Shown in pieces: positions 14,292 through 28,769 of a DNA stretch of 34,653 nt (positions are counted from its first letter, which is position 1; every line of letters starts with the position of its first letter). The position numbers and the translations under genes were made by a program. The stretch covers positions 1 to 34,653 of IMG/VR virus record IMGVR_UViG_3300038701_001883. One strand, 5' to 3'. This stretch comes from a virus. The notes beneath the pieces are model-generated. The model saw only the letters and a list, made by a program, of their open reading frames with translations. It had not been told where the DNA came from and searched no databases.

Positions 14292-14299
14292 TCTTATAA

Positions 14300-14379
14300 T
14301 AGTTTACGTCCTTTCGGGGACGTAGCTAAAAGTTTTTGTTTGTATTTCTCATACACAAAAATCAACTAGGGAAACCTAG
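14300..14379 (+). ncRNA. Three RNA hairpins after the lysozyme gene
   Basis: Hairpin 1 (14300-14328): ACGTCC/GGACGT plus a lower stem. Hairpin 2 (14333-14361): TTTTTGT/ACAAAAA and GTAT/ATAC with a two-base bulge. Hairpin 3 (14366-14379): CTAGG/CCTAG closed by a GAAA tetraloop. They are packed end to end, lack a convincing frame, and lead directly into a terminator. This may be a lysozyme 3' UTR or a small RNA processed from it. I know no family that matches. Confidence 0.5.
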
Positions 14380-14383
14380 GAAG

Positions 14384-14408
14384 AAAGCCGGTTTATCCGG
14401 TTTTTTTT
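14384..14408 (+). terminator. Intrinsic terminator of the lysozyme unit
   Basis: AAAGCCGG and CCGGTTTT pair (one G-U) around TTTAT, with a run of eight T at 14401-14408. It ends the P1 transcription unit just before promoter P2. Confidence 0.85.
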
Positions 14409-14461
14409 ACGTCTACGTTTTCCCGATACCAGTAAAACGATAAAAAAAGTAATAAAAAAAC

Positions 14462-14489
14462 TGGACAAAAGAAATAAAATAAATAGAAT
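14462..14489 (+). promoter_or_regulatory. Promoter P2 of the early region
   Basis: TGGACA (14462-14467) and TAGAAT (14484-14489), spacer 16, follow an A-rich stretch resembling an UP element. The block AAAGTAATAAAAAAACTGGACA is almost identical at P3 (21273). P2 follows a terminator and precedes the recombination and early genes, so it is likely an early promoter read by the host sigma70 RNA polymerase. Confidence 0.75.
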
Positions 14490-14507: not shown

Positions 14508-14563
14508 ACGGCAAAAAATAATATACAAATACCGGGACTTCTTAAATACAAACAACTTTTAGC
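14508..14563 (+). repeat. Conserved leader of P2 (copy 1)
   Basis: Three blocks recur in order after P3: ACGGCAAA (14508 and 21318), ACTTCTTAAATACAAA (14537 and 21335) and AACTTTTAGC (14554 and 21356). The sequence between them differs, so the blocks appear selected. They lie in the 5' leader of the transcript. A repressor site, a processing site or a translation signal could explain them. Confidence 0.6.
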
Positions 14564-14581
14564 TTTTTATTTATAACTACA

Positions 14582-17642: not shown

Positions 17643-17726
17643 ATTTGCTGGGGAGCGATTTTTCTATATACTATTGGCACAAATAGTAGGTAAAAGCTCC
17701 CCAGCAGATCACCTACTATTTTTTTT
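17643..17726 (+). promoter_or_regulatory. Pseudoknot or attenuator with terminator before the replication initiator
   Basis: Segment A (17643-17656, core GCTGGGGAGC) pairs over 14 positions with A' (17696-17709, core GCTCCCCAGC). B TACTATT (17669-17675) pairs with B' AATAGTA (17682-17688) inside that stem. But B' extended (17682-17691, AATAGTAGGT) also pairs perfectly with C ACCTACTATT (17711-17720), which leads into a run of T to 17726. So B' can form the inner hairpin or a terminator. A-A' and B'-C together would be an H-type pseudoknot. The initiator ATG follows at 17738. Confidence 0.75.
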
Positions 17727-17737
17727 ATCCAAAATTT

Positions 17738-21272: not shown

Positions 21273-21300
21273 TGGACAAAGATAAATAAAAGAATATAAT
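21273..21300 (+). promoter_or_regulatory. Promoter P3
   Basis: TGGACA (21273-21278) and a perfect TATAAT (21295-21300) are 16 bases apart. The upstream AAAAGTAATAAAAAAAC is the same as at P2. It drives the 68-residue protein, the HNH protein, the structured RNA region and the SMC-like ATPase operon. Confidence 0.8.
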
Positions 21301-21317: not shown

Positions 21318-21365
21318 ACGGCAAAGCGTTCGTTACTTCTTAAATACAAATATTTAACTTTTAGC
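21318..21365 (+). repeat. Conserved leader of P3 (copy 2)
   Basis: Second copy of the ordered blocks ACGGCAAA (21318-21325), ACTTCTTAAATACAAA (21335-21350) and AACTTTTAGC (21356-21365). The last block also appears before the ATG at 22444 without the others. Confidence 0.6.
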
Positions 21366-21374
21366 AAGGTAAAA

Positions 21375-21597: not shown

Positions 21598-22110
21598 ATG
21601 GAACGTTGTAAAAAATGTTTTATGTTTAAAATTACTCCGTCTAGTACTTGTGCTTGTAATGCCAAGAAATTCGACGAAGCAAAATTAAGCAAAAAAACTA
21701 AGACAGAAAAAAAGCCGAAAGCAATAAAACAGGTTTCGGATAAAAAGAAAGAGGCTATAAAAAACGGGAAAAGTGAAGGACCATTTTTTAAGCAGATCTT
21801 TAAGAAAAAAGTAAAGTGTAAAGAAAATTTCTGTATTATTTGTAGGCAAGAGCTTATAGCAGGTACAGAAGACGTAGAAGGAAACGTAACGCCGGCTTGC
21901 TTCCCCCATATTTTACCAAAGGGAACATATCCGGAGCTAAGATTATTAGAGGGAAATTTACAGTTTTTAGTTTGTGGTATTGAACACCACGACAAATTCG
22001 ATCAAATCATAAACGAACTTAAAGCCGATATAGGGTTAGAAGCTCTTAAAAAAATGATTATCGACGGGAAAAAAATAGATCTAAGCAAATACTTAGATTA
22101 TGAAATATAA
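21598..22110 (+). CDS. HNH / NinG-like nuclease
   Basis: 170 residues. An N-terminal C-x-x-C (residues 4-7) and a second C-x-C (18-20) could bind zinc; a Lys-rich linker follows. The C-terminal part ENFCIICRQEL, then CFPHILPKGTYPELR and LQFLVCGIEHHDKFD, has the Cys pair, His-rich core and Asn/His-type end of HNH nucleases in the NinG/Rap group, which cut branched recombination intermediates. With VRR-NUC nearby the phage has two candidate resolvases. Confidence 0.72.
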   Translation: MERCKKCFMFKITPSSTCACNAKKFDEAKLSKKTKTEKKPKAIKQVSDKKKEAIKNGKSEGPFFKQIFKKKVKCKENFCIICRQELIAGTEDVEGNVTPACFPHILPKGTYPELRLLEGNLQFLVCGIEHHDKFDQIINELKADIGLEALKKMIIDGKKIDLSKYLDYEI

Positions 22111-22113
22111 AAA

Positions 22114-22186
22114 ATCGAGGCTACCAAGGACCTAGTAAGGAGGCTTTAGAAAGTTTAGCTAACCCTCGATCCTACTTCTAAGTAGG
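22114..22186 (+). ncRNA. Structured RNA, elements 1 and 2
   Basis: ATCGAGG (22114-22120) pairs perfectly with CCTCGAT (22164-22170), enclosing 43 bases with only weak inner pairing. CCTACT/AGTAGG follow as a tight hairpin (22171-22186). The 7-bp closing stem looks like a tRNA acceptor, but the 57-base length and missing T-arm exclude a tRNA. CCTAGTAAG at 22131 recurs at 22247, each time followed by GAGG or TGGAGG. Confidence 0.5.
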
Positions 22187-22242
22187 TAGTAGTATATTAT
22201 CGGTATAGGTTTCTCCTTTACCCTAGCCGTAATATACTACTA
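22187..22242 (+). ncRNA. Structured RNA, element 3 (long hairpin)
   Basis: TAGTAGTATATTA (22187-22199) pairs perfectly with TAATATACTACTA (22230-22242). CGG/CCG and TAGG/CCTA extend the stem with small bulges to about 20 pairs around a pyrimidine-rich loop. No T run follows, so it is not a terminator. Its A/T-rich dyad could also act as a DNA site. Confidence 0.65.
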
Positions 22243-22262
22243 CTTGCCTAGTAAGTGGAGGA

Positions 22263-22305
22263 TCTACGATAAACATTTTATAAATGAATAGGAACACTTC
22301 GTAGA
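22263..22305 (+). ncRNA. Structured RNA, element 4
   Basis: TCTACGA (22263-22269) pairs with TCGTAGA (22299-22305) and encloses a second small hairpin, CATT/AATG (22273-22285). It lies between the long hairpin and the branched structure. No frame of note crosses it. Confidence 0.45.
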
Positions 22306-22312
22306 AAATCTA

Positions 22313-22410
22313 TTAAAAGGTAAGCCCGGAGGCGTGAAAAATACTAGTTGTAGAGCTACTACCCTAATACCATATAGGGACTAGCTCGTGCCTCCCGGTT
22401 TACTTTTTAA
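22313..22410 (+). ncRNA. Structured RNA, element 5 (three-way junction)
   Basis: An outer stem of about 23 pairs is built from TTAAAAGGTAAG with the bases after 22399, then CCGG/CCGG and GGCGTG/CGTGCC, with single-base bulges. Inside, CTAGT/ACTAG closes a junction carrying two hairpins, GTAG(AGCTA)CTAC and CCTA(ATACCATA)TAGG. This is far too regular for chance. It ends 33 bases before the ATG of the SMC-like ATPase, so it is either its leader or a separate RNA. I recognise no RNA family. Confidence 0.7.
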
Positions 22411-22443
22411 GTAAAATATTTTAAACTTTAACTTTTAGCTACA

Positions 22444-23703
22444 ATGAAAGTAAAAAATATTAAGATTACAGACCTTAGAAATATCGAGATTTTCGAAGGA
22501 GATCTAGGGGACTGGAACGTAATAGACGGGGAAAACGGAAGCGGGAAAAGTACAGTAATTGACGCTATTTTTTGAGCGATCAGAGGAAAAACGTATTTTA
22601 ATAGCGATCCTTTTAGACTCGTAAAGCACGATAAAGAAAAGGCTATTATAAATTTAGTCCTGGAAGGAGAAAATAGAGAGATCATTATTAATAGAATATT
22701 TACCCAACCGACAGACTGAAAAGCGGAGGGTTACGATACTCTAAGGATAGTAGATACTTCGGGAGCAAATCTAGGACAAAAGGAATTGAATAAATTTTTT
22801 AGTAGTTTTACGATAGATCCTTTACAAATTGCGAGACAAAAACCTAAAGATCAAATCGAAACTATTAAGGAAATTGCCGGAATAGATACCAGTAAAATAG
22901 AGGCAGAAGCGTTAGAGATCTATAATAAAAGAACCGACGAAAATAGAGAGCTTACCAGGTTAAAAGGTGTAGTTTCGGAATATGCAGGGGTAGAGAAAGT
23001 GGAAGAAGTAAGCGTAACAGAACTTATAGCCGAAAGGGATAGAAAACAACACGAAAACGCAGAAATAGAAAGATACGAAAATAAAAAAGGTATGATTAAC
23101 GGCGGAATAAAAGACGCAGAGGATCAATTAGAGGAAGCTAAACAACTTATAGCAACTTTAGAGCAGGATATTAAAGATTATAACGATCAAATAAAAGAAT
23201 GCGACGAATACCTAGAAAAACACAAAGAACACGATTTAGAAGAAATTACAGCTAATATAAACAAATCCGAAGAAACTAACGAAAATGCAAGAAAATACAA
23301 AGAAAAAGAAGAAAATATAGGAAAATTACAAAAACAACAGGAAGTACACGACGCTTTAGATACGAAATACAAGGAAACTTTAGCGAAAAGAGAGAAGCTT
23401 ATAGCGGATAGCGATATACCAAATTACATAAGTTTCGATAAAAATGCAGGAGTTTTAGTAAATAATATACCATTTACACAGTTAAATACAGCAGAGCAAA
23501 TAAAAATTAGCATACAGTTAGGTAGTATACTAACTCCGGAGCTAAAAGTATTGCATATCAAAGACGGAAGCTTATTAGATCAAAAAACAATGGAGGAAGT
23601 ACAAAAAATAGTAAAAGAACACGATTACCAAATACTTATAGAAAGAGTAGGGGAAAGCGACCAAGGTACTATTACTATGAGAGAAGGGGTAAAAATTAAA
23701 TAA
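22444..23703 (+). CDS. SMC/Rad50-like AAA ATPase
   Basis: 419 residues, UGA-Gly at 22573 and 22717. Walker A is GENGSGKST (29-37). A coiled coil fills about 170-330. The C-terminal part has FTQLNTAEQIKISI, resembling the ABC signature helix, and LKVLHIKDGSLLD in place of Walker B, followed by YQILIERV. This is the form seen in a family of short phage ATPases of the SMC/RecF type. It probably acts with nucleases or the annealing protein on DNA ends. The structured RNA cluster lies directly upstream. Confidence 0.82.
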
Positions 23704-27308: not shown

Positions 27309-28748
27309 ATGAAAAGTAAATTTACAAAAGATCAAGTAAATCTATTCTATAAAACCCTAAACGAGTTTAAGCTAGAGGTAGATTTTAAAGGAAATAAAAA
27401 GCAAAGGCAAGCCCTGGAATTACTTATGGACCATACAGGGAAGTTTAAGGACGTAGAAGAAGTGGGGCTTTGAGGTGGTGCCGGTGGATCTAAAACCTTT
27501 TCGGGGATAATATGGCAATGGCTACAAAGAGTAACCTACCACGATACGCATAGCTTTTGGGGACGTAAGAAGTTAAAAGATGTAAGGGGGTCTATGATGA
27601 GTACCTATAAAAAATTCTGTAGGGTTTATAAGATACCGGAAATATTACAAGGGGAATTTGACGGACAGGATAATATAATATATTTTCCTAACGGATCTAT
27701 GGTTAGATTTTTAGAGTTAGAATATAAACCGAGTGATCCGGAAAATGATAGGTTTTGATCTTATGAGTATACAGACGGTTTTATAGAGGAAAGCCAACAA
27801 ATAGATTTATCAGTAGTAGAAACACTACAAACCAGGGTAGGGCGTCAAATGAACGCGGAACACGGTTTAGTACCTAGGATCCTGGAAACGTTTAACCCGT
27901 CTAAGGGACATATATATAGGAGGTTTTGGCAACCTTCGGAGTATAAAGATAACGATATGCCAAGTAATAGAGTCTTTATTAGATCTCTAGCAACGGATAA
28001 CAAATATAACGACGAAAGGTACTTAAATAAATTGAAGTATCACAAATCTATTATTATTAGAGAAAGATTATATTACGGTAATTTCGACTATGACGATACG
28101 CCAGGAAAACTATTTGAGTGGGACGATTTACAGGATCTAGCTACCAATCCTAACAGTTTTGGAGAAAAAGCCATAATTTGCGATCCGGCTAGAAAGGGTA
28201 GAGATACGGCGGTAATAACCGTTTGGAATTGATTAACCCCTATAGCCTATGCAGAGTACAAAAAATGTACTAACGATATACTAGAGAAGAAAATACAAGA
28301 GTTTAGCCAAAGGTATAAAGTCAATATGCGTTACGTCGTGGTAGATGAGGACGGAGTAGGTGGAGGGATCGTAGACCATTTAAAATGTATCGGTTTCGTA
28401 AATGCCAGCAGTCCAATAGATACCAGGACAGTACACGAGAAAAGAGAGGGTAGAGTACCAAAGCCTAATTTTGGAATACTTAAAGATCAATGTTATAGTT
28501 TACTTGCGGATAATATTAAGGAGATCTCTACTAGAGTATTTCCGGATAAGATCAAAGATAGAATTATAGAAGAGCTAGACGCAATTAGCCAAGTCGATAT
28601 AGATAAAGACGGACCGTTTAGAATTATTAAGAAGGACGATATTAAAAAAGTGTTAGGTTATTCGCCGGACTGGGCAGATAATTTTATGATGAGAATGCTT
28701 TTATTAATGAAACCTAAGAAAAAGAAAGCCCTAGTTATTTCCGCGTAA
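27309..28748 (+). CDS. terL: Terminase large subunit
   Basis: 479 residues with UGA-Gly at 27471, 27756 and 28230 (residues 55, 150, 308). Walker A-like VGL[G]GGAGGSKTFSG spans 52-66. The Walker B region is RF[G]SYEYTDGFIEES with E160-E161. The nuclease domain starts near CDPARKGRDTAVITVWN[G]L (D292) and continues with VVDEDGVGGG and a late DWADNFMM. The motor ATPase drives DNA into the head and the nuclease cuts it. All three UGA positions fit glycine in this family. A terminator overlaps the 3' end. Confidence 0.95.
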
Positions 28749-28769
28749 GAGCGGACTAGGGTTTTTTTT
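28729..28769 (+). terminator. Intrinsic terminator overlapping the terminase end
   Basis: CCCTAGT (28729-28735) pairs with ACTAGGG (28755-28761), and CCGC with GCGG inside, followed by eight T. The upper stem holds the terminase stop codon, so translation would compete with the fold. It separates terminase from the abundant head genes. Confidence 0.9.

Follow-up and report, generated by a model that had tools for sequence, protein, structure and literature searches.

What lies in the 333 nt (22111-22443) that separate the gene of a small HNH-like protein from that of an SMC/SbcC-like ATPase in a tailed phage? The window, i.e., the whole 34,653-nucleotide stretch of viral DNA analyzed here, represents a 34.6-kb tailed phage with nearly all genes on the + strand and with frequent in-frame TGA codons. 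Window proteins were aligned, with TGA left undecided, with those of L002, L008, L009 and the full L014 contig; TGA was found opposite glycine 31 times and opposite tryptophan 0 times, and the terminase alignment scored higher with TGA read as glycine. On these two grounds, the alignments indicate that the phage uses genetic code 25 (TGA = glycine). Code 4 (TGA = tryptophan), the first reading, was dropped because the alignments of relatives put glycine at TGA. Code 25 is the code of Absconditabacteria/Gracilibacteria, and many of their predicted phages share it (PMC10746230); a host assignment going beyond this shared code is putative. No tRNA or tmRNA of the window was matched by ARAGORN, and the HNH-like protein has no Pfam or PHROG hit. 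Under code 25, the gap contains no + strand ORF of at least 20 aa, in agreement with an earlier note on this DNA, which had described nearly 300 nt without a credible gene.

That note had also described five strong RNA structures in the gap, and suggested that they are selected RNAs. A genome-wide scan of the energy-versus-GC residual, thus corrected for base composition, placed the gap among the most structured segments of the genome and ranked it first within the window. Region 22112-22416 folds on the + strand at -104.9 kcal/mol (z -5.46, with 0 of 100 shuffles as good) and on the - strand with z -4.54. Single elements were each compared with 200 shuffles, dinucleotide shuffles serving as the control (Table 1). 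The long hairpin H2, the small hairpin, the branched element H3 and the inner hairpin of H3 (z -4.5) were found to be beyond the shuffles, but the 7-bp closed element with a tight hairpin, the first of the five, fell within the shuffled range and is missing in L002, a relative considered below; AAGGACCTA (22126-22134), which lies inside it, is also present in L002. The perfect stem, claimed to be of 13 bp extended to about 20 pairs, exists and is in fact one of 14 bp (GTAGTAGTATATTA with TAATATACTACTAC) within a 26-pair helix with two single-base bulges. The claimed 98-nt three-way junction does fold, as H3, although its outer stem has about 19 pairs rather than 23 and its third arm is a weak 3-bp stem. 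CCTAGTAAG is indeed repeated (22131 and 22247), and an imperfect longer form of the repeat reads CCTAGTAAG(T)GGAGG.

Table 1. Features in and around the gap upstream of the ATPase gene (positions of the window).
Feature	Position	Strand	Remarks
Upstream gene, small Zn-finger/HNH-like protein	21598..22110	+	CxxC ... HILPKG ... HH
Claimed 7-bp closed element with tight hairpin	22114..22170	+	z +0.2, within chance
Long hairpin H2	22171..22260	+	z -7.8, 0/200 shuffles as good
Conserved 66-nt core of H2, 26 pairs	22182..22247	+	every pair kept in L002
Bulged apex, TCGGTATAGGTTTCTCCTTTACCCTAGCCG	22200..22229	+	conserved; 12-nt loop with CUCCUU in both phages
Small hairpin	22263..22306	+	z -3.9; window only
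Branched 98-nt element H3	22311..22408	+	z -4.8
AT-rich leader ending in AACTTTTAGCTAC	22397..22443	+	shared with L002; resembles 14537-14581 and 21335-21374
Downstream gene, SMC/SbcC-like ATPase	22444..23703	+	phrog_1499

Is any of these structures conserved? L002 (IMGVR_UViG_3300019763_000125) contains the same two genes, with products 69% (HNH-like) and 71% (ATPase) identical to those of the window. Its intergenic stretch of 124 nt folds into a single long hairpin at the same place, with z -6.2 in one test and -7.5 in another. The core of H2 aligns with this hairpin without a gap over 66 nt, and 26 of 26 pairs are standard in both phages, of which 18 are invariant, four show one-sided changes and four show two-sided changes. 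Sliding the partner columns by 1-3 positions destroys this conservation of pairing. The 36 outer-stem positions contain 12 differences between the window and L002, and in a simple null model, with the same numbers of substitutions placed randomly, all 18 outer pairs survived in 192 of 1,000,000 trials; the shuffle control of the covariation tool, applied to two sequences only, was as high as observed in 29 of 500 cases. The covariation thus rests on one comparison, since only two sequences carry the hairpin. The 30-nt apex is better conserved than the stem, with few differences, all within the loop, and CUCCUU occurs in both loops, offset by one base between the phages. The earlier note had named an absence of compensatory changes in homologues, or a folding energy in the shuffled range, as grounds for rejecting its claim; neither applies to H2, and the latter applies to 22114-22170. 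Overall, in these two related phages a long hairpin whose bulged apex is conserved occupies a fixed position upstream of the ATPase start and is kept by compensatory change. The comparison supports H2 as a selected RNA, conservation being seen for H2 only. That the gap is functionless and folds by chance describes the first claimed element well, but is extremely unlikely for the locus considering the folding energies of H2 and of its L002 counterpart as well as the compensatory changes.

The strand on which selection acts was examined with the same two copies. A covariance model gave the two copies 94 and 93 bits on the + strand versus 32 and 23 bits on the - strand. The L002 hairpin has an energy of -41 kcal/mol on the + strand versus -26 on the - strand, and contains five G-U pairs in its 18-pair outer stem region, which are mismatches on the opposite strand. 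Since the + strand alone keeps the pairs well, the RNA runs in the sense of the genes. These observations bear on the proposal that the element is a palindrome acting at the DNA level, such as a mobile hairpin or an HNH-linked recombination or replication site, and merely resembles an RNA. Such a palindrome would fit the presence of the element where the HNH gene precedes the ATPase gene (window and L002) and its absence otherwise (L014), and the repeated CCTAGTAAG pieces suggest local duplication; however, the G-U pairs and - strand energy in L002 point to selection on a + strand RNA, and each genome examined contains one copy, so this reading appears quite improbable.

Which phages have the RNA? 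Homology scans with the ATPase, the HNH protein, the exonuclease and the terminase yielded L002, L014 and the fragments L008/L009. In L014, whose ATPase is 57% identical, another ORF lies directly before the ATPase gene, the HNH gene is located elsewhere and there is no structured gap. Thus, the ATPase does not need the RNA, which rather accompanies the HNH-ATPase arrangement, being present in the window and L002 and absent in L014. L005-L007 contain distant HNH relatives, with another gene directly after and no structured gap. The HNH profile had no match in bacterial genomes, and L002 alone was found when IMG/VR was scanned for exact patterns of the apex. Across 84,980 genomes of bacteria and archaea, the apex pattern gave four scattered matches in unrelated taxa, approximately as expected by chance, one of them with a weak model score. 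Over all loci examined, the covariance model recovered the two known copies only, a single copy per genome. A BLASTN search of the region in a database of 50,697 phage records gave no match. In Rfam 15, to which the earlier note had also pointed, no family reached the gathering threshold for the window or L002, and the sub-threshold matches are not credible, also at the E-value level; MIR1319 (RF04262), with 31.1 bits on the - strand versus a gathering score of 116.6, reflects a microRNA precursor model matching a long hairpin by chance.

The two phages differ in the number of hairpins. Neither the small hairpin nor H3 was found as such in L002, whose hairpin consists of the H2 apex joined to the stem base AAAAGGTA / TTTACTTTTTA, which in the window forms the base of the H3 stem. 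The CCTAGTAAG(T)GGAGG pieces recur in the window at 22131 and 22247 and have one counterpart in L002, CCTACTAAAAGGTAGG. Because of this split of the stem base to H3 and the repeated pieces, the window cluster looks like an expanded single hairpin, one to which further hairpins may have been added when the locus was rearranged or duplicated locally; the direction of this change is likewise presumed.

How is the RNA expressed? An early promoter, TGGACA-16-TATAAT (11/12), lies upstream of the HNH gene in both phages (21273 in the window, 404 in L002), and no promoter was found within the gap. The leader DNA adjoining the ATPase start shows 86% conservation over 55 nt. A module ACTTyTTA ... AACTTTTAGC ahead of the start codon is common to the leaders 14537-14581 and 21335-21374, the ATPase leader and both L002 leaders. 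As a separate observation, the early promoter recurs as AAAAACTGGACAAA-N-TATAAT at 14462 and 21273 in the window, at 404 in L002 and at about 14190 and 19792 in the L014 contig; in the window and L002 it is followed by the shared leader ACTTyTTAAATACAAA..AACTTTTAGC. Clear Shine-Dalgarno sequences are missing upstream of most starts, and TTAACTTTTA-like AT-rich motifs are enriched within 40 nt before start codons.

At the 3' end of the gap, H3 or the L002 hairpin could act as a terminator or attenuator between the genes, ending in CUUUUUA, with UUUACUU able to pair with the stem base or, alternatively, with the downstream AAGUAAA. Both the 7-bp pairing UUUACUU...AAGUAAA and the competing stem base are present in the two phages. 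However, no canonical terminator was found after H3, which lacks the GC-rich stem with a directly adjoining run of unpaired U that marks an intrinsic terminator, UUUACUUUUUAAG being partly inside the stem; the tail consists of only five U and is partly paired, the other terminators of the phage (14388-14411, 17707-17727 and 28725-28766) have U8, and the terminator scan made no call in the gap. Termination here is therefore an unlikely function. Two further pairings were noted: AACUUUUA is able to pair with the first codons (UGAAAGU) of the ATPase, which fits the low unpaired probability at its start, and the flank AAGGA (22126-22130; 1021-1025 in L002) is complementary by eye to the loop UCCUU in both phages, possibly forming a candidate pseudoknot.

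A free-standing non-coding RNA, either excised from the HNH-ATPase message or transcribed from an unrecognized promoter, could instead target host or phage RNA in trans by means of the CUCCUU loop, a match to the anti-Shine-Dalgarno sequence; it would measure about 100 nt in L002 and about 300 nt in the window. This proposal would account for the conservation of the apex and loop beyond that of the stem, for the presence of CUCCUU in both phages despite the one-base shift, and for the strong fold relative to shuffles. However, the gap has neither the promoter nor the canonical terminator of a free-standing small RNA gene, the position is tied to the ATPase start, complementarity to phage leaders reaches 8-9 nt at best, and no Rfam family matched at the gathering level; we thus consider a free RNA doubtful. 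Very unlikely is its extension to a new trans-acting RNA of code-25 (Absconditabacteria/Gracilibacteria) phages, whose anti-Shine-Dalgarno-like CUCCUU would compete for host messages or ribosomes. Among the three roles suggested in the earlier note, an elaborate leader fits best, because in both phages the RNA immediately precedes the ATPase start, and the promoter and canonical terminator of a free small RNA are lacking. The multi-part small RNA locus is unsupported, and nothing was found in favor of a host-targeting or anti-defence RNA.

Other RNA structures were observed elsewhere in the window. Region 17643-17730 (about 1765-1855 in L014), before the replication-initiator gene, contains two mutually exclusive hairpins, GCTGGGGAGC..GCTCCCCAGC versus AATAGTAGGT..ACCTACTATTTTTTTT, the latter being a U8 terminator. 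Its pairing arms hardly vary in L014, unlike its spacers. The region resembles a conserved attenuator of transcription or a switch of the riboswitch type, and matched no Rfam family at the gathering level. Region 14306-14411, after the lysozyme gene, resembles a compact small-RNA gene (z -5.2), with TATAAT at 14294, a 5' hairpin, single-stranded GTAGCTAAAAGTT, a hairpin and a U8 terminator. GTAGCTAAAAGTT is complementary to the ATPase leader over 13 nt. The RNA also has matches of 12 nt with the 14582 leader and of 10 nt with the 21375 leader; since 6 of 652 control stretches did equally well on the top three, the evidence is modest. The intrinsic terminator after the terminase gene (CCCTAG...CTAGGGTTTTTTTT) is conserved (window 28725-28766, L008 4110-4150, L009 about 204-245).

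Returning to the gap, its best explanation, with roughly an even chance of being right, is a cis-acting intercistronic + strand RNA between the co-transcribed early HNH-like and ATPase genes, in which the hairpin would function as the ATPase-gene leader. The promoter at 21273 would drive both genes. The conserved apex and CUCCUU loop may be bound by a protein or RNA, possibly the AAGGA flank just upstream, and the long stem may serve as the substrate of an RNase III-like enzyme or may shield the downstream message, with the apex as the recognition point. The ATPase message would thereby start with the short leader ACTTyTTA...AACTTTTAGC, which other early genes would obtain through their own promoters. 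The ATPase start region is predicted to be partly paired elsewhere, even outside the hairpins, which counts against the leader reading.

Two known kinds of phage element are comparable. The early transcript of phage T7 contains RNase III processing hairpins between genes, which are long and nearly continuous with small interruptions. H2 is likewise a long, near-continuous intergenic helix with small interruptions, and with 26 pairs and two single-base bulges it has the length of such sites (at least about 20 bp, near-continuous, between cistrons), making its stem a candidate RNase III-like processing site by analogy. However, the apex is the best conserved part of H2, and T7 sites are, as far as we are aware, not marked by an invariant apex. 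Phage translational operators are bulged hairpins that lie before a start codon and bind a protein, and H2 resembles them as a conserved bulged hairpin upstream of a putatively controlled gene. Unlike in operators, the core of H2 ends about 196 nt before the start (about 41 nt in L002), leaving the start uncovered.

What does this RNA mean for the biology of these phages? It belongs to no Rfam family, and is a familiar kind of phage element rather than a new kind of system; taken alone, it is a phage leader RNA of an ordinary type. Knowledge of gene control is scarce for phages of recoded candidate-phylum bacteria, and a selected RNA with a defined conserved apex in such a phage means that its binding partner can be sought. 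The locus may also show the growth of one intergenic hairpin into a cluster between close relatives.
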